Below, piece after piece: positions 1 through 18,143 of a stretch of 64,000 bases of DNA. The stretch is taken from the NCBI GenBank assembly GCA_949152475.1, contig OX424561.1, positions 29,010,481 through 29,074,480 of the forward strand. The letters are read 5' to 3'. The notes under the pieces are model-generated. The model did no database searches and had not been told where the DNA came from. It saw only the letters and a list, made by a program, of their open reading frames with translations. The stretch comes from Terebella lapidaria (taxonomy: Eukaryota > Annelida > Polychaeta > Terebellida > Terebellidae). A program made the translations under genes and the position numbers. Positions within the stretch are counted from its first letter, which is position 1, and each line of letters starts with the position of its first letter.

Positions 1-2395
1 ATCGCCACGTGCTTGAAATACTTTTTCCACAGTCGGTAGAAGTAGGACATGGAACAAACTGTGACGCCCTTCTCTTGCAATTCCATCTCCATTTGTGTGT
101 ATATCTCGAGCTGTGTCAGACATGACGGTAGATAGAGTCGAGTTGTGTTCGGTAGTTTGTCAGCGAACAACGTTACATACGAACGGATCCACGCAATACT
201 CTGTTGAACAGACGCCGAATGTAATCCGCGCTTGCTGCTGTTTGGCGTCACAGCGGTCACGCACCCAGCTGCAAAGCAGAACATTCCCCCGCATACAGTT
301 TTAAAATTAGAACATTTGGATTTCATGATTGCTGTAACTAGGTTACATTTTCTTCCACATCCTCTGTAACCCCTTGTATAATGTCATGCTAATGCGTGTT
401 CCAACGAAATGACAAAGTGCGATTTCATATCATTATAGCTTACATTCAAAAGCACGCCTGATCCTATAGACAGTTGCCCGTGATGAACCGATAACCAACT
501 GCCAGGCCGTGAAACACACAGTCATCGTACCTGGAAATAGGTGAGAAAATGACAACCAACCCTGTGCCAAAAGTGACTGTCATAGTGTGAAAGCTTATTT
601 TATAATATTTTAGGTGGGAAATCTGATGAGAAATAATGATACAAAAATTCGATATTTATATATTTATATACATGCATATGTATATGCAATTTTTGGTACA
701 CAAAGTCGATAGCAACTCTCATTCACACACGTTTCGTATTCACTGGGTGGGAGCTTGCCCATGATTCTCGACGAGTCAACTCGGTAAAAATCTTTCCTCG
801 CAGGGGCTTTGCTCGGCAAAAATCTTTTGTCGCATGGGCTTTCAGATGCCCCTGTGATTGAAGATTTTTGCCGAGCAATGCCCCTGCGTAGAAAGATTTT
901 TACCGAGTTGACTCGTCAAGAATCATGGGCAAGCTCCCACTCAGTGGTATTGTTCCCAAAATAAATCAATAGCAAATCTCTATTTTATTTGGGCAGACCG
1001 CACTCTCCCACCGCACCCCGAACCCCCGCTCCACCACTCCCATCTAACCGTATGCCAGGGACAACGCCCCAAGCATGGCAGCAGATTATAAAATGTAACA
1101 GATCGTCAGACAGACAAGTTGTACCTGCCGACAGAGGGCGATCCATCTATATTACATACCGATAACGAACGTGTAGGTGAAGTCTCCATCCATATCTTTA
1201 TTGGAATGCGTGCAAAAGTAGTCGAGTATCCATTTTCTCTGTTGACTTTTCGTCATGTCTTGGAATTCTTTCCTCACCCGTGTGATAGTGTCGTAGCATT
1301 CAATGTTGGCCGCAGCCAGACATAACCAACTACAACACATCACTGCTGCAAGCTGGGTAGTTGCGACGCAACCTCGTTTCACTGCAAAATGAATGGACGT
1401 TTGGATAACATAATTATTGCAAGTACAAACATCAGACCTGAGGTTATGTTTTGTCAACATCATTTACATTGTGAAATATTTGAGAACAATCGATACTGAA
1501 CAATATACCATAGCACTTGCCTTTCTTATGAGATTTCTGATGTGCTGGCACATTCCCATCTCCTGATTCAGGCGAACTATCATTCCTTCTTTTCCCTGAA
1601 CCAATCGGCCTGCCGCGGCGAGCTAATTCTGGAAACATAAACCACAACGTTTAAAGTTTAGGTGACAAATGAAACAGATATAAATTGAAGGCCCGAAATG
1701 TTCATCGGTATACAAAAGACTTATAATCTGATACCCTCCAGCAGCTTCACTGAGACTTAAATGTTTTTAAACTTCACTTACGATTGTGTCTGTTGCTGTC
1801 CTTTGATGCTTGACCCGGTTCTGCAGCCTCAGAATCACTGGATAGACTCTCGCTCGTGTCGTCGTCAGATAACCCATCGAATTCTTGGGCCCATTGTTTA
1901 CCAAACAGAACTCGTCTGCTAGATGTATCATGGTCTGTGCCCCACAAATCGAATAATGGAATTTAGCATACGATAAGTCGAAATTACATCGGGGTTTAAA
2001 AAACGTTCGTTCCCAAAATATAATCAATTGAATTGTCAACTGTTTTCAATACGAAATACGCTTATGCAGTTACATGAATATATTAAACATAGTTATTTGG
2101 AAGAAGTTGAATAGATATTGACTATATCCCGAAGAAGTCAAGATAATGGTTCGCACACCAAAGATATCTTAAAATAATAAAACATAATAATAGAATGTAA
2201 TCTTAGTATATCTTATAATGATTTCAATAAAATGTAATCTTAGTCATAGCTTGGAGCGACGCAGAATATCCGCGTATAATGGTTCAAGCATATGTATTTG
2301 ACCTGTTTAAACTATCAAACGCCTCGCCCTTGGTGTGATATTCAGAGTGAATGCTCAAACTTACCAGATTCGCTGCTAAATTCCTCACTCTCCAT
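1..2395 (-). CDS. Transposase-family-like protein with AT-hook, 5' part of gene (6 exons, runs off the window)
   Basis: Exons on the minus strand: 2365-2395 (start ATG, MESEEFSSES), 1782-1934, 1521-1628, 1160-1381, 444-530, and 1-268, which runs out of the window. All joints are phase 1 and all acceptors are CAG. Exon 3 uses a GC donor (AAG|gcaagt). The conceptual N-terminus is acidic and serine-rich (about residues 1-60), then carries an AT-hook-like ARRGRPIGSGKRR, then RVRKEF...QQRKWILDYF, then FVIG..TVCFTAWQLVIGSS, then LFADKLPNTTRLYLPSC. The 'F-I-G-x-x-x-V-C-x-x-A-W' plus 'LYLPS' layout resembles the N-terminal region of large uncharacterised transposase-like families in invertebrates and fish; that resemblance is recalled, not searched. 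A DDE core would be expected beyond position 1 but cannot be seen. Spliced frame is open throughout, so it may be a live or recently domesticated gene. Confidence 0.7.
741..946. mobile_element. Hairpin MITE with 5-bp target duplication GTATT
   Basis: Nearly perfect inverted repeat: left end CACTGGGTGGGAGCTTGCCC, right end its near complement (one mismatch in the first ten bases). It is flanked by GTATT at 736-740 and 947-951. It lies in the intron between exons 4 and 5 of the minus-strand gene. No coding capacity. A 5-bp duplication with CAC-starting ends fits Transib/ProtoRAG-like or some hAT families; superfamily is not settled. Confidence 0.8.
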
Positions 2396-3690
2396 GTTGT
2401 TGTTATCCGTCAGTGATCAGTGATGACTCCAAGTGGTCAAAAACGCAAGTTTTTTAGATGAACCAAATCGAATTTTTTACATCTACAATGTACATGCGCC
2501 CAAAATTACGAAGTTATCCGTGAGAGAACAATTATGGATAGAAAAAAAAATCCACACAAATCTGATCATCTCTCTCGCTGACAAAGCGTTCATGGACATG
2601 GGCTATCTACCGTATTAACGATCAGGCATACAATTCAGGGAAGGTGTGAATTACTGTTGTACAGTCGGGTGTTTGAACTCCAAGTACACAGAATGATACG
2701 ACAACCACGTGCACCCAAAACAATCGAGTTTCTTGTCAGCCAACATCAAAGGTATTGTGGTTCCCTGTGTTCATTCTGGGTTAGAGACCCAGATGAGAAA
2801 ACGGTAAAATTTGATACGGCGTATCCTAGCCTACATGCTTATTGTTATCGTCATTATGGAATGTAATACATGACAGTCCCTCTATTATGTATTAGTTAGT
2901 GGGCGAGACGCAGGTCATTATTAGAAACGAAGGGTTTTCGAGACCAAATTAACTACCTATATAGAACAATGAATATATCCATTAACTCCACATCTGGAGT
3001 GAAACTAAGCCTGTTGTGAAATTAAGCCTTTTTTTTTTTATCTATTTCTATCTATTAGCTACCAGCTTCAATTCCTCTAAATCAATGTGCATACCTGACA
3101 CGTGCTGACGAAAGGTGAAATGAAACATTATATTTTGGACCTGTGTTTCGAAGGAAAAAGATCAGAATGTCAAGCAATCATACCACGACAACACATGTGC
3201 ATTTTTTTAAGTACCAGTAAATTATATTATGGGGTCTCCTCAAACATCTGCCTTCTCGGTATTTCGACACCAGATGTACTTTTCCCCTCTATACGGCCAT
3301 TAATTATCAAACTGATTCCTCTACATATATACTTGTAGCATGGCAGCACATGGATCCGACTGGCAACTTGTGGGGGACTGAGTTGATTACTAGTATTGTG
3401 TTACTCCACGCTGAGGGGGGGGGGGGGGGGGAGGGGGGGGAGTCTCTTCGAAAAAGAATACCGGTAACAGTTTTCACGACATTATAACCGGCGTTTTAAG
3501 GTTTCGTTCTTCGTTCAGAATATGACTCCTATTTCTTAGTTTATGATACACAGTCGTTTACGTTAAATTTTGCATCAACCTCAGTGTTAAATTTTGGTCA
3601 CTTAGATAATTCAAGTCCCGACTCTGCACGTTGACCGTGTCCCAAACACCGGATTTAAACCCATGTGACTAATGGTGATATCTCAAATTA
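2396..3690. other. Intergenic stretch, nothing recognised except a G tract
   Basis: Short frames here (for example 2433-2618 and 2657-2866) show no recognisable motif and no convincing splice context. A long G tract interrupted by one A lies at about 3415-3440. Promoter elements of the minus-strand gene starting at 2395 would fall here, but I see no clear TATA or initiator that I would call. Confidence 0.5.
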
Positions 3691-4013
3691 AAGGTGTATA
3701 CAGACCCTGTATCATTTACCCTGGCCGAATTGATGGAAAACATCCAGAAGGAAATCAGGAGATTGAGAGCAACCTGATCGAACGCTGCATTGCATTTATA
3801 ACCGGTCGATTGAAAGACATCATGAAACAGTGAAGAGATCATTAGGAACTATACATCACACCAAACAATCAAGATAAAGAGATAGGCACCATTGACTTAG
3901 ATAAACTTGAGAACATATGGCTTACCTTGGTATAAAATTTGTGGTTGTTTTATTATTTTCGATGCAAATAACTGCAAATAATTTTGGGTAACTTTTTCTG
4001 GGACACCCTGTAA
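3691..4013 (+). mobile_element. Tc1/mariner-type transposon relic (transposase C-terminus and right end)
   Basis: Reading VYTDPVSFTLAELMENIQKE (from about 3694) and then, after a shift of frame, LIERCIAFITGRLKDIMKQ and a stop. This resembles the C-terminal 'Y-x-D-P...L-x-E-L...I-x-x-E-I' segment of Tc1/mariner/IS630-type transposases. Downstream, 3985-4011 reads TTTTTCTGGGACACCCTGTA, a typical mariner-like terminal sequence in inverted sense. The left end and most of the transposase are not recognisable. Inactive. Confidence 0.55.
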
Positions 4014-5280: not shown

Positions 5281-6425
5281 GTGTCACATTAAAATAGAAT
5301 TCCAACAAAGTCATTAAGCCCCGTAAAGAACCAGGCGATCAAATCCGATATATCGGTCATATGATCAAATATCGTACATACCGGTAATAAATAAATAAAT
5401 AAATAAAAGTTGTCAAAGCACTGAACAGTTTGGAATTTAGACCTCTCAGAGTGGTTACTACCAAGGCAAATCGTTCTCAGAGGGATTTTTTTGCAACATT
5501 TTAGAGCACCATGGCCCATTCCCTTTATAACAGCGGGTGACACCTCAGTGATGAGTTTGGACAATATATGGACTCCAGACACTTCAAATTGAGGCCAGAT
5601 GACAAGCAATTAGCTCCACTTTGAACTACACTTGTTGAGCGCGCTACCATTGTCTGTAGTACCACTGTTACTATTTATACGGCGTCAAATTTACATAGAA
5701 TGATAGCATATTGGGTGGGATAGAGAACAAATCCATCCCATGACTAAGTTGACTTTAAAAGTTAGACGAGCTGGTACTTCAAAGACATAGACACAAACGG
5801 AACAATCGTCTGATGAGAGTTGCCTGTACAATGTTCGATTGCAATTAGCCATACATATTCGGGGGGGGGGGGGGTCAAACGTCTGGAAACACTCATTAGC
5901 ATTCAGATGGTGCAGATGGTCCTGCACTTAATTGTTTTCTCATAAATTTTAGATTACGTAACATGAATTGATTACGTACGGCTGGACAGGTATATGTCGT
6001 TCATGTTATATGCATACAACATTATATATATATTGAACTCTGCGAAAATAGAGCGTACTGCATGCCGCTTTTGCAAATTTTTCAAAGACACAAAATGCCT
6101 GGTCATTTCGGATTTCCCATCATTACCCTTTTTGGGCTCATGAAAGAATCATGATTTGAGATACGAGTAAAACAAGTATTAACTGCATTAATAAACACTG
6201 GCCCTCTGCCGAGTGAAAAGGATCGATTCAATTTCTCATGAACAGGGTCAGTTTCTTGTCGGAAGTAGGTTGGTGCATCGTCGCGCTTAAGATATGTAAC
6301 ATCACACGGGAGTCCGCATTGAACTCTTCTATGTTTTTGTTAATTCTATTATTTTGACAGACCAACACAACATTCAATTTGAGTTGTTTGACGTTTATAT
6401 TGTATGAGATACAAAATATCAATAT
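5281..6425. other. No gene recognised; one G tract
   Basis: Frames on the minus strand (5289-5609, 5691-5927) show no family motif or codon bias that I can see. A run of 14 G lies at 5861-5874. Short TAAA tandem run near 5387-5407. Confidence 0.4.
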
Positions 6426-12500: not shown

Positions 12501-15500
12501 TCTACGTGTGAACGTGGAAGCCTAAAACCTTTCTACGTGCGAACGTGATAAGTTTTAAAGTTACCACGTGCGAACGTGATAGTGCTAAATACTTCCGCGT
12601 GCGAACGTGGTAGTTTTGAACTTTTTACGTTCGAACGTGCATGGTGTTTAATAGAAAAAAAAACACCAATTTCTTTCCCGCAATGCCACCTATGGGCTTC
12701 CATAAATAATAGACTCAACGAGCAAAATTATTGTTAACTTATTTAGTAATTTTATTGGTAATTCTCTTGCCGAATCCAATAATAAACGTTTCTCACCCTG
12801 ATTATTTTCTTTGTGCTCAATAATATAATTAACTGGCAGAAGTAATGTTAACTTATTTGGTAATTTCATTATAACAGTAAAAAAATAATTAATGTTCAAA
12901 GGGTTTCCTTGCTAAACCAATAATAAACGTGTTTCGCCTTAACTATTTTTATTGTGCTCAATAATATAGTTACTATAACGTTAATTTATTTGGTATTAGC
13001 AATACTAGAGCCACATAATCTCTGGGTAAAACATTTTTGATGCTGATTTTAATAATAATTGTCTCAAGCCTTCAATAGCTATTTTTATTACTTGTTCGCC
13101 TATGATGTAATTCTTTCTTGGAAAGACGGGGGGAGGGGTGGGGGATAAAGGCCTCATATGCAGCTGAAAATAACTTCATTATTTTTGCAGACTCTGTCTT
13201 CCATGGAAACAACTTTTCACGTGTCCTGTTATTCCACAAGATGTTGGAAGCTTATCGAACGAATCATGGGCACCGAGTGTATGAACTCTCGTAACAAGCC
13301 ATTGGGACAAACGGTACATGGAAATTATTTTCTTTATCAACAAGTTTATATGGCAGACACTTTACTTTTTAAAAAAAATTGCCATGCCTCAATAGCTACA
13401 TCACCATGTCCTAAACTTATATATATATATTTTTTCTTTTTAATTAAACCTACGTCAACTTAATTTTTTCTCAGCATGTATTTATATTCCCGTGTTCTCA
13501 TGTTTTTCTGTGTTTCTTTCTCTTTCTATGGTGATGAAATTGATAACAGTACCTCTTTTTTATGTCCAATATGTGTACCTCATATTTGATTATTGTGTTC
13601 TAACCTTCCTTCCTTCTATGGTGTGTTTCTGTCACAACAAAAATATTATGATCGAATCCTTTTTTTTATTGCGGGCAGGGGGGGGGGGGGGGGGGGAGGG
13701 CAAGAAGCGAGATTGCCGATTGGTTATATGCGAGCGTTTAGTCACTCAATTCGAACCAACTTATAATATTCTACAATAAAATCTTAAAAAACTAATATAC
13801 TTCTCCTGACTTGTTGTGTCCCATACCAACGGATTACAAGTCAGTACAGATCCACGGGAAATTATTATGATGTCATAAAACAGACGACTATGACACGGCG
13901 TGGGTTCGATCATTGTAATTGTAGGGGAATTTCACTGGTATAAAAACGCACATTAATAACCCTTTTGTCACTTCCACAAGTTATTGTATTTATCGAAATC
14001 CTTTCAAGTCAAATCTACATAATCTTTATGGGCTCGCTTTGATATGACAGTTAGTTGAAAACTAGCAAAAGGCATCAACTACTTGGTCATGTCTAACAGG
14101 AATCACTTTACCAAGGTAACCCATTATATGGTCCGAAGTGTTCAAGTGGATACATATACTAGTAGTATTGATTATGTGTTTCCATGTTTTACCATGAAGA
14201 GGTAACCAACGCCACAATCTCAGTATTGTTTTTTTGGGGTGAACAATGCTACGCGGAATTATGTTTTATAAAATTAACGATTTTTGCAATTCGATGCAGT
14301 AACGAAATATTTCAGCCAAAAATTTGTTTGCAAGTCAAGATCAGCGCATACATAAATGTCGATTAGTGTACAAGCGTGTTAAATTTATATTCAGGAATTA
14401 TCGTGCATAACAGTTTATTTTGGTTTGCGAGATTGGGAGTTGTAGGGGTTAGGAAATAAAATTGTCTGGAAATTGTTCCGATTTAGGTCTGGAAAGTCCT
14501 TGATTTTGTTATCAGCTAGAGTGGGAAAAATGTGACTATATTTACAGTAGTTTAGGAGTTCAGAAGTCCAGACTAAAGAAAAATCCCCAGTGCCCCACAC
14601 TGGAATCAAGCTACGCACTGCTAAGAGGCGACACGTGTCTTTTACTGCATTTCCTGACGCTTGTGTATATATGTGTATCATGATTCGTTCACAAGTTTTA
14701 TTTCGAATTCCTTTCAATTATTTCTTCTCTTATCTTTTACTCCTTATTTCTCTGTTTATTTATTTATTTATTCCTTCGAGCGTTCCCCCACCCCCACCTC
14801 CTGCGATATTTTCTATCTCTCCGCGCAATGTCTCCTATCAGAATAACATAACAGAGGTCTCCATTGAAATATTGAGAACAATGAGGAATCAGATGTTCGC
14901 AACACAACGTGCAATGTGGTGATTAAATGTCCCCTATTCTCCTGCAGGTATTCCAAGATTTTCAGGGTCTTTCTGAAACTCTCCGGTTCAAGCTGCTGAG
15001 CCGAGTCGGTTCCGGACTGATAACTCTCCAGAAGGCTGCGGCTGAAGCCAAGAAAACTAAAAAGCTGAACCGGATCCAAGACTGTTTTGTTCACTTGACA
15101 AAATCAGCCACCTGGAAGGAAGCAGTACAATCACTGTAGGAACCCTCGATCGAAGCGATTACCGTAACGCGCGTTACGGTAATCAAAAACATGGCGGAAG
15201 GTGAGCCAGTTCGAATAAAAACTGCGTATTTTGCTAGGTATCTCGGGTATAGTATTGGAGTCACAGTGATACATATATATCAGACGTTGTGGGAAATTCA
15301 TCAGTACTGTTTCTGAAACGTGTCGTAGAGTTTGATGCGAGTAAGGAGGGATTTTAAAATTTGGGAAAGATTACCGTAACTTCTAGGCTTGATTACCGTA
15401 ACGTTCGACGGCACAGTGAGGCAGATTACCGTAACGTGTGGTCAAACTGTCCTGAAATCACTGGGATTTCTCGCATATACCGTCTCAAATTAGCAGGAAA

Positions 15501-18143
15501 ATCATAAATACATGTATCCTCATCAATAATCAATTGATCCAAATACAAGTATCCACATCATCAATTTAGATACGCAATGCCGATGTACTACAACAGCCGT
15601 TTGAAGCTGTATTATCGTCTTTGGTCAAACACGGAATACAGCACCACAGTTGGTCCAACAATGTATTGACTACCAGGCGAAAATGCCTTGATCCGCCAAC
15701 CGGTGCCTTATCTTGTGTGCCAGTACAATATGTTCTGGCCGAACTTCGATTCATTAACGAACAGAAATTAAATGCGTATACCCCCCCCCCCCTCTCGTGA
15801 TTATGGACTATATACCATTTATTTTCAGTACATTCAAGGAATGTGTGTTGAAAATAAGGTTTCATTAACTAATATCTCAAAATTACGTATCGACGACCTT
15901 CATAATATTGATAATACGACCCGTATTTCCGTGTTCTTGTATTTCTGAAATACATATGTCTGATCTGATCAGAATTGGGCATTTTTCGAAAAAAAAATGG
16001 CTGTTTTGACCTTTTAAGGTCATCGAAGGTCAACTTCAAGGTCACCATCCAAATCGTAATGACTTCACATTTGAAAGTGCCAATATCTAAGCTGTATCTT
16101 CAAGCTTTCTAGAGTACAGTTGTGGCAGTATTTATAATACACACTTTCAATATTTTGTATTGCTATTATGTTCATATTATTAATGACTATTGACTACTAC
16201 TTGTTTCACCGATGAGGTAAGTACTCAGGTCACGTCTTCGTCAGATCACCATTTCTCGTCCACCTATCACTATTTCATGTCTACATGTATTTGTTGTACA
16301 GGGTGGCCCAGAAAAAATTCCAACCGAAACCTACAAGCTCGAGTAAAGGGTATTATGCCATACAAATTCATTAAAATCGATCCTGGGCACCTAAGAAGCG
16401 GTCTATCCCTAAATATGCGCCTCCATTATGATGTTGCACAAAATGTTTCAATGAAAAATTATGGTTATAGGTAAGTTTTAATCATTCTATATAGATTCTC
16501 ACTTGTACATTAAAAAAATGATGAATCAGCAGAAATGCCTCAACTCAATGTTGAAGATAAAGATTATCCTGTTGAAAAATATGATAAGAGTGTACTTTTT
16601 GGGGAAACAATAGTCCCAGCATCAAATGGACATCCACTACCAAGTACGATCCAAGAACTGAAGAATAACACCAGCAAGAACTCGTTTTTGTACTCGATAA
16701 CAATCTCCGAGCAATTTGACGGAGAAAATTGAGCGACGAGATTGTGGCCAAAGGCGGACATTTCGAACACTGTTTACTGAACTTTACTGTCATTGGAAGT
16801 CAAATGTTATATCACAGACGGCGTGTATTTACTTATTTATTGTTTTCTTCCATTTCGAATGCGTTTGATACACCAGGCTGGTATAGCATACCACAGGGAC
16901 GAGTATTTGTTTCGGTTGGGTTTTTTCGGGCCAACCTATATGTTATATTTTTGTAGGCTTGAAAATATTGAATTCATTCCGGACATGTTTGCTGTAAAAT
17001 AGATAGCATATGTGCCGTTATATTTAAGATAGATCAAATGTCTGTGCGTCCTTTGGTCTGTAGGTATTTTCCCTGGCTATGCACATTCGCATAAAATATG
17101 ATTTATATATTAGTTTCTCAAATTATGAGTCGTATGCACTGGAGGAAGCAGCACGCACTACTTTTATACTTACATCACTTGAAATATGTATTTTGACATA
17201 ACACGTTACCGTAATCAGTCCTAAACGTTACGGTAATCACAGCTGCCAAACCTGATGACGTTACGGTAATCCAGAGATATTTTTTCTCAGACAAAATAAA
17301 CGTGCATGCCGTAAGTTGAGACAAACGTCCAACTCGCTGAATTTTAAACAATGTCCGAACTCCCATATGAATGCTGCAAGTGTATAAAACAAGTCGTGAT
17401 TTCTTTGGGAATGGACATGGACGAAACGAAGCGACTGGCCTTCCGCCATGTTTTTGATTACCGTAACGCGCGTTACGGTAATCGTTTCGACCGGGGGTTC
17501 CTACAGTGACAATGGTATCCGGAGCACGCCGACATCTCGACACTGGAGAAGAAGTTCCTTGGTGAATTTCTCTTTGATATATATGCTTTTAATATAGGCC
17601 TACATGTACCATGCTTTGTAGTTCGTATATATAGGTCAAGTGTGCAGTAAAATATACACATCAGATTATAATTTGGTTTAATTTTGACTGGAGGATAGAG
17701 TGAATGTACATGTAAGTTATTCATTGTGGTTTTCAGACATGAATTTCAAGCAAATTCCCCTGGAATTCGTCCAATATTGTCAAGAGGCGACGGACTGCGG
17801 CCGGGCTCCTAACGAATCCCATGGCATTTCGACGCTAGGCCTGACAGTGGATATCGCAGTGAAGGACAGGGGCAACACATTGGCGGGAAATCTTCTTGAA
17901 TCGCTCAAGAGAAAATATGCGATGAAATTGCGCAAGGACATCGCTAGTAATATCGAGACCATCAACAAACAGTCCACCCAACCATGCGTGACCCCCATCC
18001 CTTCATCATCATCAGCATCATCATCACCCCCCTCATCATCGGACGAACAATCGGACACGCTACCCCCTACACCGATAATGTCATCAACGATGGTTTCTGA
18101 CTCATCGCGCACCGACGTATCATGTGACATAGAACATGATTGA
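9512..18143 (+). CDS. ParB-like domain protein, five exons, exon 4 split by a DNA transposon
   Basis: Exons: 9512-9679, 10892-11719, 13191-13313, 14948-15131 continued at 17514-17561, and 17737-18143 (stop TGA). Introns are GT-AG and phases match. Leaving out the transposon and one target copy gives a reading of about 585 residues; with the element present, exon 4 ends in the terminal repeat (...VQSL stop). Exon 2 holds the recognisable domain: FQVRDVNRNHVNAIKQGLL, VLPCVVAI, then VTLGGNHLRTACQEL, which matches the ParB N-terminal 'G-x-x-x-L-R-x-A' box, then EARRIATLHNVQTETRR...FERV, which matches the ParB segment 'E-A...A...E-N-x-Q-R...E'. The arginine pair of the canonical box is N-H here. 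The C-terminus has a serine run coded by TCA repeats. ParB proteins bind DNA and CTP in bacteria; function in this animal is unknown. The start is the first ATG in frame; upstream exons are possible. Confidence 0.75.
11895..12701. repeat. Inverted array of palindromic CACGTTCGCACGTG-type units in intron 2
   Basis: Ends are inverted: GGAAGCCCATAGGTG at 11895 and its complement ending at 12701, each next to TA. Between them about two dozen copies of an interrupted palindrome (CCACGTTCGCACGTGG and variants) recur every 30-36 bp. The copies read mostly as CACGTTCGCACGTGG in the left third and CACGTGTGAACGTGG in the right two thirds, so the whole stretch is a large imperfect foldback made of small foldbacks. 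Frames such as 12158-12343 are by-products. Possibly a MITE with TA duplication that expanded internally. Confidence 0.75.
15132..15436 (+). promoter_or_regulatory. Left-end motif array of the transposon (candidate transposase sites)
   Basis: GATTACCGTAACG occurs as a perfect 28-bp palindrome of two facing copies at 15157-15184, then as three same-direction copies starting at 15369, 15391 and 15424. Offsets of the three from the element end are 237, 259 and 292 bp. The copy at 15369 has T in place of the last G. Confidence 0.8.
17204..17508 (-). promoter_or_regulatory. Right-end motif array of the transposon (candidate transposase sites)
   Basis: Mirror of the left array: the 28-bp palindrome at 17456-17483 and three copies of CGTTACGGTAATC at 17204-17216 (one mismatch), 17226-17238 and 17259-17271. 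Offsets from the right end are 237, 270 and 292 bp. Spacer sequences between copies do not match those of the left end. Confidence 0.8.

Follow-up and report, generated by a model that had tools for sequence, protein, structure and literature searches.

A non-autonomous annelid transposon with ten copies of one motif in a mirrored layout at its two ends

Introduction

Several groups of DNA transposons invite comparison with the element described here, a non-autonomous transposon found in 64,000 nucleotides of the annelid Terebella lapidaria (assembly GCA_949152475.1, contig OX424561.1, positions 29,010,481 to 29,074,480 of the forward strand; this whole stretch is called the window below), whose ends each carry five copies of one thirteen-base motif. 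According to the accessible part of their description, Ginger1 elements encode a Gypsy-type integrase, accompanied in nearly all families by an Ulp1 or OTU protease and sometimes by a PHD finger (PMC2836005). They make 4-bp target duplications that read CCGG or CCGT/ACGG, their tips are TGTNR, and their inverted repeats are 40-270 bp long. The same part of that source gives Ginger2/TDD elements TGTNR tips and RTATAY as the preferred target, with 4-bp duplications in the animal members (PMC2836005).

Ends with several sites are described for bacterial transposons. The excerpts available to us report three separated sites at the left end of Tn7 and four partly overlapping ones at its right end, and, for I-F3 CAST elements, three 20-bp sites per end that are unevenly spaced on the left (PMC13370975). 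For RAG-like transposons of protostomes, the accessible text gives a repeat consensus CACTWMCAAACKTYKBB, and GC-biased targets are reported for ProtoRAG, Transib and RAG (PMC7204232, PMC8289069).

We somewhat favor the reading that the window element is a deletion derivative of a cut-and-paste transposon, moved in trans, with multi-site ends and an integrase-type (DDE) transposase that would carry Ulp1 and PHD domains and be related to Ginger. The layout of the sites and its conservation are presented before the candidate gene and the rival explanations.

The element and its ten sites

The site motif is the thirteen-base GATTACCGTAACG. Ten copies lie in the element, of which eight are exact and two (at 15369 and 17204) have one mismatch. 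The original prediction had claimed a 28-bp palindrome at offset 25 and three further copies at each end, and a motif scan of the window confirms this arrangement. The subterminal offsets of 237/259/292 on the left and 237/270/292 on the right are exactly reproduced (Table 1), and the gaps of 22, 33 and 55 bp are indeed multiples of 11. Each cluster of three combines two sites 22 bp apart with a third that stands 33 bp away; this lone site is the innermost of the three on the left and the outermost on the right. The clusters are thus mirrored, 22+33 on the left and 33+22 on the right, with 55 bp between the first and last start.

A scan of the 64-kb window that allowed up to three mismatches gave 16 matches, against a mean of 12.87 in shuffled sequence, and 28 of 100 shuffles reached 16. 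It is the matches with three mismatches that bring the total close to the shuffled level: ten of the matches have no or one mismatch and are all inside the element; the other six have three mismatches and are all outside it. A chance origin of the ten sites was rejected because every match with no or one mismatch in the 64 kb falls in the element. The core of the motif, TTACSGTAA, is near-palindromic, so that the orientation of a site is defined only by its GA and CG flanks. Each site may therefore accommodate a dimer or be contacted by either side of a domain.

It had further been proposed that a transposase complex assembles on one face of the DNA. The sites do lie roughly on one side, but not strictly so: with a helical repeat of 10.5 bp, spacings of 22, 33 and 55 bp leave phase errors of 34, 51 and 86 degrees, the distance of 212 bp from palindrome to cluster is 69 degrees out of phase, and the 15-bp step within the palindrome is about half a turn out of phase.

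The terminal inverted repeats measure 83 bp if one flanking base is included, and the left repeat is 90% complementary to the right one. The tips of the element read CACTGTAG, with TGTAG starting 3 bp inside and the target duplication sitting outside CAC. A copy on contig C4 is 99.8% identical to the window copy over 2379 aligned positions, which indicates recent movement.

Table 1. Positions in the window of the element, its repeats, its sites and the candidate first exon
Feature	Position	Strand	Remark
Non-autonomous DNA transposon	15132..17508	.	2377 bp; termini CACTGTAGGAACC...GGTTCCTACAGTG
Left target-site duplication	15127..15131	.	ACAAT
Right target-site duplication	17509..17513	.	ACAAT
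Left terminal inverted repeat	15132..15213	+	
Right terminal inverted repeat	17427..17508	-	
Left 28-bp palindrome (two facing sites)	15157..15184	.	offset 25
Right 28-bp palindrome (two facing sites)	17456..17483	.	offset 25
Left subterminal site 1	15369..15381	+	offset 237; GATTACCGTAACT
Left subterminal site 2	15391..15403	+	offset 259
Left subterminal site 3	15424..15436	+	offset 292
Right subterminal site 1	17259..17271	-	offset 237
Right subterminal site 2	17226..17238	-	offset 270
Right subterminal site 3	17204..17216	-	offset 292; core flipped: GATTACGGTAACG
Candidate first exon of the lost transposase gene	15191..15200	+	ATGGCGGAAG, then splice-donor-like GTGAG; right repeat reads GGCCAG

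Copies across the genome

The host genome searched comprises 761.6 Mb in 438 contigs. It holds 197 exact copies of the 28-bp palindrome, which corresponds to about 100 copies of the element, and 205 copies of CACTGTAGGAACCCCC (99 and 106 on the two strands). No exact copy of the palindrome was found in the viral and prokaryote collections. Searches with the left and the right end scored the best 40 of 346 and the best 40 of 337 candidates, respectively, and old copies are under-represented among these.

Twenty loci were checked (the window copy, L041-L058 and L073). Nineteen are complete; L055 is incomplete and was excluded from the counts. The subterminal motifs recur in the other copies: at up to two mismatches, exactly ten sites are present in 18 of the 19 complete copies and nine in L073, and in all 19 every site lies within 330 bp of one end or the other. 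Lengths of 1.7-2.9 kb are found in 16 of them. Target duplications are 5 bp long in 13/19 and 6 bp in 3/19, and in the remaining three no exact flanking repeat of 4-8 bp is present. The 16 duplications of 5-6 bp have a GC content of 31%, that of the window being 41%.

One further copy, additional to the 19, is flanked on both sides by the 5-bp duplication AGAAA (L039/L040, G000:C7:31206797-31219848). A Ty3/gypsy-like retrotransposon with long open reading frames, named by eye, is nested in it and divides it in two, and this 13-kb copy was for that reason rejected as an autonomous element.

Constraint on the sites and their positions

Sequence constraint was measured on 22 distinct left and 31 distinct right ends, sorted by word content; ends with more than one difference in the first 13 bases were excluded from this count and from that of length changes. 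Columns within the subterminal sites differ from the consensus at a frequency of 0.008 on the left (n=22) and 0.002 on the right (n=31), versus 0.051 and 0.050 in the other columns, and are thus 6-20 times less variable than their subterminal surroundings. When a comb of the same shape was slid along the end, none of 185 positions on either side was as low, and none of 20000 random windows on either side was as conserved as the sites. CpG columns show the same difference, with 0.017/0.013 inside sites versus 0.040/0.046 outside (left/right).

The two ends of the element agree closely over the repeats, with 92% identity over offsets 0-25, 100% over 25-53 and 87% over 53-83. Over 83-237 the identity is 29.9%, and no alignable similarity is left (491 of 500 shuffles score as well). 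Despite this unrelated stretch, the clusters at both ends begin at 237 and have their last site at 292. The original prediction had held that spacers differ and that positions rather than sequence have been kept, and this is borne out by the same offsets beyond the unrelated stretch; the 9-bp spacers within the 22-bp pairs qualify it, being identical at six of nine positions between left and right, although this is not significant (85 of 500 shuffles are as good). On contigs C1 and C2, 47 of the 49 site pairs listed lie 33 bp apart. An exact palindrome within 400 bp accompanies 38 of these pairs, at the expected 212 or 234 bp in 35 cases, and none was found within that range for the other 11.

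A second, diverged family

Pairs of exact sites separated by 2-32 bp occur at 207 places, and the sequence was read at 42 of them. At two of the 42 the spacer is unlike either end of the first family. The spacer of this second family reads TGAAAGCCGACTTTTGGTGT at one place, where the step is 33, while at another it is longer by one base and the step is 34. The loci of this family are C1:15080700-15081300, C1:73641250-73641800 and C12:29181800-29182100. Upstream of second-family sites we looked for seven letters of the inner half of the palindrome at a gap of 181-211, a match expected by chance at about 0.2% of places over the 31 gaps (own arithmetic, equal base frequencies). Two places matched, namely the step-34 place, where the gap corresponds to offset 237, and a place on C12, where it corresponds to offset 243. 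The step-33 place gave no match in this seven-letter test. Taken together, the column constraint, the offsets shared by left and right ends and the second family argue that the layout is more than inheritance.

Coding copies and the candidate transposase

One copy, L073 (C4, 7.2 kb, duplication TCAAG), carries a gene between family ends. From left to right, the third left site is followed by an integrase-like exon (NGAEFKN...), by GRARHSQSQGLVERGNRT, by a Cys-rich part, by an Ulp1 protease (PF02902, 1.7e-6) and by a PHD finger (PF00628, 3.3e-10). From position 5398 onward its sequence corresponds to that of the short copies, interior and right end alike, and the short copies thus resemble gene-deleted versions of this element. 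They also share a joint: leaving aside the four coding copies, 30 of the 36 scored matches start at query position 796-799, and among the remaining ones there are five beginning at 874, for which a further piece covers 797-878. Within L073, positions 364-2097 and 2095-3828 form a perfect 1.73-kb tandem duplication, the left edge of which falls in the third subterminal site.

The integrase fragment occurs in four family copies at five places (one copy contains a tandem duplication), and in every copy it lies about 480 bp from the left tip. It covers the region from the second D to the E, and at the deletion joint the codon for the D encodes Y instead. Since an integrase-like fragment, Ulp1 and PHD are found together in four longer copies, the mover of the family is probably a Ginger-like integrase transposase. 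The start of the lost gene may also be preserved. Among the six commonest variants, ATGGCGGAAGGTGAG accounts for at least 14 of 22 left ends and ATGGCGGAAGGCCAG for at least 24 of 31 right ends, and the left-repeat form resembles a first exon with a splice donor, which fits a gene starting there. The original prediction had suggested looking for an autonomous copy with a transposase of a known superfamily. None was found among the 150 of 2953 candidates scored for the fragment; there are four coding copies only, and their gene is incomplete.

Relatives of the candidate domains elsewhere in the genome were also considered. Of the 56 matches of the integrase fragment, the other 50 are 35-44% identical over about 70 residues and lie in other frames; they were taken, unread, to be Gypsy-type integrases. 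A relative on C189 (61% identity) is decayed and has no site with up to three mismatches in the 2301 bases read, and was rejected. Relatives of the Ulp1-PHD part on C1, C17 and C4 were rejected as intact relatives because they are pogo-like, the protein having been read for C1 only. That locus (G000:C1:318300-320900; L075, L077) encodes a pogo-like DDE_1 transposase with an Ulp1 protease and a PHD finger, the same module as in the integrase-like element, and Ulp1-PHD is a module common to unrelated transposons.

Comparison with described families

Likeness to Ginger1, as far as its accessible description goes, lies in a putative integrase-type gene, a C-terminal Ulp1 protease, a PHD finger (in one listed Ginger1 family), introns and long inverted repeats. 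A protease of the Ulp1/OTU kind and a PHD finger are present in L073, and inverted repeats of 83 bp (90%) fall within the Ginger1 range. TGTAG is also present, but 3 bp inside the tip. The text of PMC2836005 contains neither 'subterminal' nor 'palindrom'. With Ginger2/TDD the element would share the integrase type, and it shares AT-rich targets; TDD-4 and TDD-5 make 5-bp duplications according to the same accessible part (PMC2836005). Two other integrase-type groups of eukaryotes differ at their ends in the text available: IS3EU/GingerRoot has TA..TA tips and 6-bp duplications, while IS481EU has duplications of about 4, 15 or 25 bp and tips TNT..AYA (T. vaginalis) or TGT..ACA (H. meleagridis), unlike the element (PMC10045372).

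In the arrangement of its sites the element resembles Tn7 and I-F3 CAST. These have a transposase of the integrase superfamily and, in the excerpts available, several binding sites per end, unequally spaced and differing between left and right. The element likewise has several constrained sites per end in a fixed but unequal spacing. Tn7 and CAST differ in being bacterial and, for CAST, in the 20-bp length of the sites. Neither is known to have a terminal palindrome of two facing sites, and both employ accessory ATPases. Phage Mu likewise has a transposase of the integrase superfamily and several binding sites per end. Tn7 is the closest published parallel, and the analogy would concern how the element works, not the family to which it belongs.

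In the titles and abstracts of the literature searched, mostly outside subscription journals and Repbase, no description of the element or of its site arrangement was found, and the 13-mer is represented in literature text, among the matches listed, only by its 9-letter core, although texts with more of the motif would have ranked first. The earlier statement that no described family has this arrangement therefore holds for the literature searched. Ends with several unequally placed sites occur as such in Tn7 and CAST, and Hermes and CACTA elements have repeats in subterminal position.

Working model and rival explanations

In the favored reading, each end would offer five transposase-binding sites, two in the palindrome beside the cleavage site and three in the cluster that begins at 237 bp, and a transposase multimer would bind all ten. 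The terminal palindrome would load catalytic subunits near the cut, and the inner clusters would bend each end back on itself and bring left and right together. At insertion the target would be cut with a stagger of 5 bp, in some cases 6. The cognate enzyme would be an integrase-type (DDE) transposase with an Ulp1 protease and a PHD finger, related to Ginger. That the integrase-like/Ulp1/PHD gene encodes the transposase, that this protein binds the sites and that assembly follows the order given here are inferences.

A number of observations weigh against this reading. The family copies are related, and the cluster (1/22 left, 0/31 right) shows no clear deficit of length changes relative to the interval from tip to cluster (3/22, 8/31), the latter stretch being about four times as long as the cluster and one right end with two visible sites having been counted as shifted because its third site was cut off beyond 330 bases; shared offsets within the family are therefore mostly inheritance. 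The second family has the exact offset 237 at one of three places, none of which is shown to combine it with the step of 33, and its two agreements with the first family (the 33 step and the 237 offset) come from different copies. As for the gene, the three coding copies with a left part read share one 5' truncation and lack the first D and the N-terminus; the coding copies may all belong to a single lineage, and their coding part may be passenger DNA. Pfam has no match for the integrase fragment, and the PDB match, to an avian retroviral integrase, is weak (E 0.1). A complete transposase gene was not found among the 150 of 2953 candidates scored for the fragment. Ulp1-PHD is not diagnostic, since a pogo-like DDE_1 transposase of the same genome carries this module as a fusion too. 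Finally, the AT-rich duplications of 5 (6) bp are unlike those of Ginger1, none of the 16 holding CCGG, CCGT or ACGG, and CAC-TGTAG ends are unlike TGTNR tips. On account of duplication and tip the element is not assigned to Ginger1. Ginger2, in the accessible part of its description, differs by its TGTNR tips, its RTATAY target and the 4-bp duplications of its animal members.

The possibility that the mover is of another class (hAT-like, CACTA-like or undescribed), with the integrase-Ulp1-PHD gene as a captured or nested passenger, is the most serious of the rivals, though we regard it as unlikely. It would account for a gene present in four copies only and with the same truncation as far as read, and subterminal repeats are typical of hAT (Hermes) and CACTA elements. 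Yet no inverted repeats or target duplication are visible by eye at the edges of the coding part, and the direction of the gene agrees with the splice-donor-like start in the left repeat. The target duplication speaks in the same sense, as it has neither the 3 bp of CACTA (EnSpm) nor the 8 bp of hAT elements. A control function of the subterminal sites, through which a host or element factor would act on a promoter in the repeat, is very improbable. A palindrome just upstream of an ATG and a splice-donor-like sequence in the left repeat would suit it; the right end, however, has sites in equal number and depth with GGCCAG in place of the donor, and the constraint is at least as strong there (0.002) as on the left (0.008).

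Membership in the RAG/Transib group, with movement by the RAG1-like transposase of the genome itself, was suggested by tips that begin with CAC and by the 5-bp duplications of 13/19 complete copies. RAG1-like open reading frames of 1022-1058 amino acids at three places in the genome would supply the enzyme, and ProtoRAG and its kin share bipartite ends with a length-sensitive spacer, as far as their accessible descriptions go. Other features nevertheless make this origin rather improbable. The element tip fits six of the first 15 positions of the protostome consensus as given in the accessible text (failing at 5-9, 11-13 and 15), while the RAG1-like element of this genome, CACATAGAAACGTCC, fits 12 of 15, both judged by eye and the latter with an edge taken from a comparison of two copies. 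The duplications, at 31% GC (n=16), contrast with the GC-biased targets described for ProtoRAG, Transib and RAG. Sites are absent, at up to two mismatches, from the ten RAG1-like loci and four flanking stretches read, and a RAG-like origin was rejected on the absence of the motif from these ends and flanks. The genome gave 18 RAG1 matches, all of them outside the copies read, and no RAG1-like gene was found in the copies, for which no copy-by-copy RAG1 profile search was made.

To return to the integrase-type reading, the element could represent a distinct eukaryotic branch, characterized by 5-bp targets and by CAC outside a TGTNR tip, with Tn7-like ends in which ten near-identical sites stand in a fixed mirrored grid. 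We put this forward tentatively, with less confidence than the favored reading itself. On this proposal the grid would have outlived the intervening sequence, whether left is compared with right or one family with the other, and the conserved thing would be the three-dimensional paired-end complex itself. Nothing on a multi-site end arrangement in eukaryotic integrase-type DNA transposons, kin of retroviral integrases, was found in the accessible part of the literature searched. If the proposal is true, ordered multi-site end pairing, known from bacterial Tn7, extends to a eukaryotic relative, and the ends of the element are a ready substrate for structure work. The roughly 100 copies are a natural mutagenesis record of which bases and distances matter.

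Other observations

The RAG1-like open reading frames of the genome (E to 6e-87) lie at C7:27378022, C9:33534726 and C3:39081053 (L059-L061, G000), in elements that are 98-99% alike and that are possibly recently active RAG-like transposons. Their left edge, obtained by comparing two copies, reads GCACATAGAAACGTCC and agrees with 12 of 15 positions of the protostome consensus, in the accessible form, after the G.

When the window element is excised in silico and one ACAAT is left, an open reading frame spans the insertion point (...TWKEAVQ/WYPEHADISTLEKKF...; window 14927-15131 and 17514-17650). A Pfam search with this frame gave no match, and the insertion may interrupt a coding exon.

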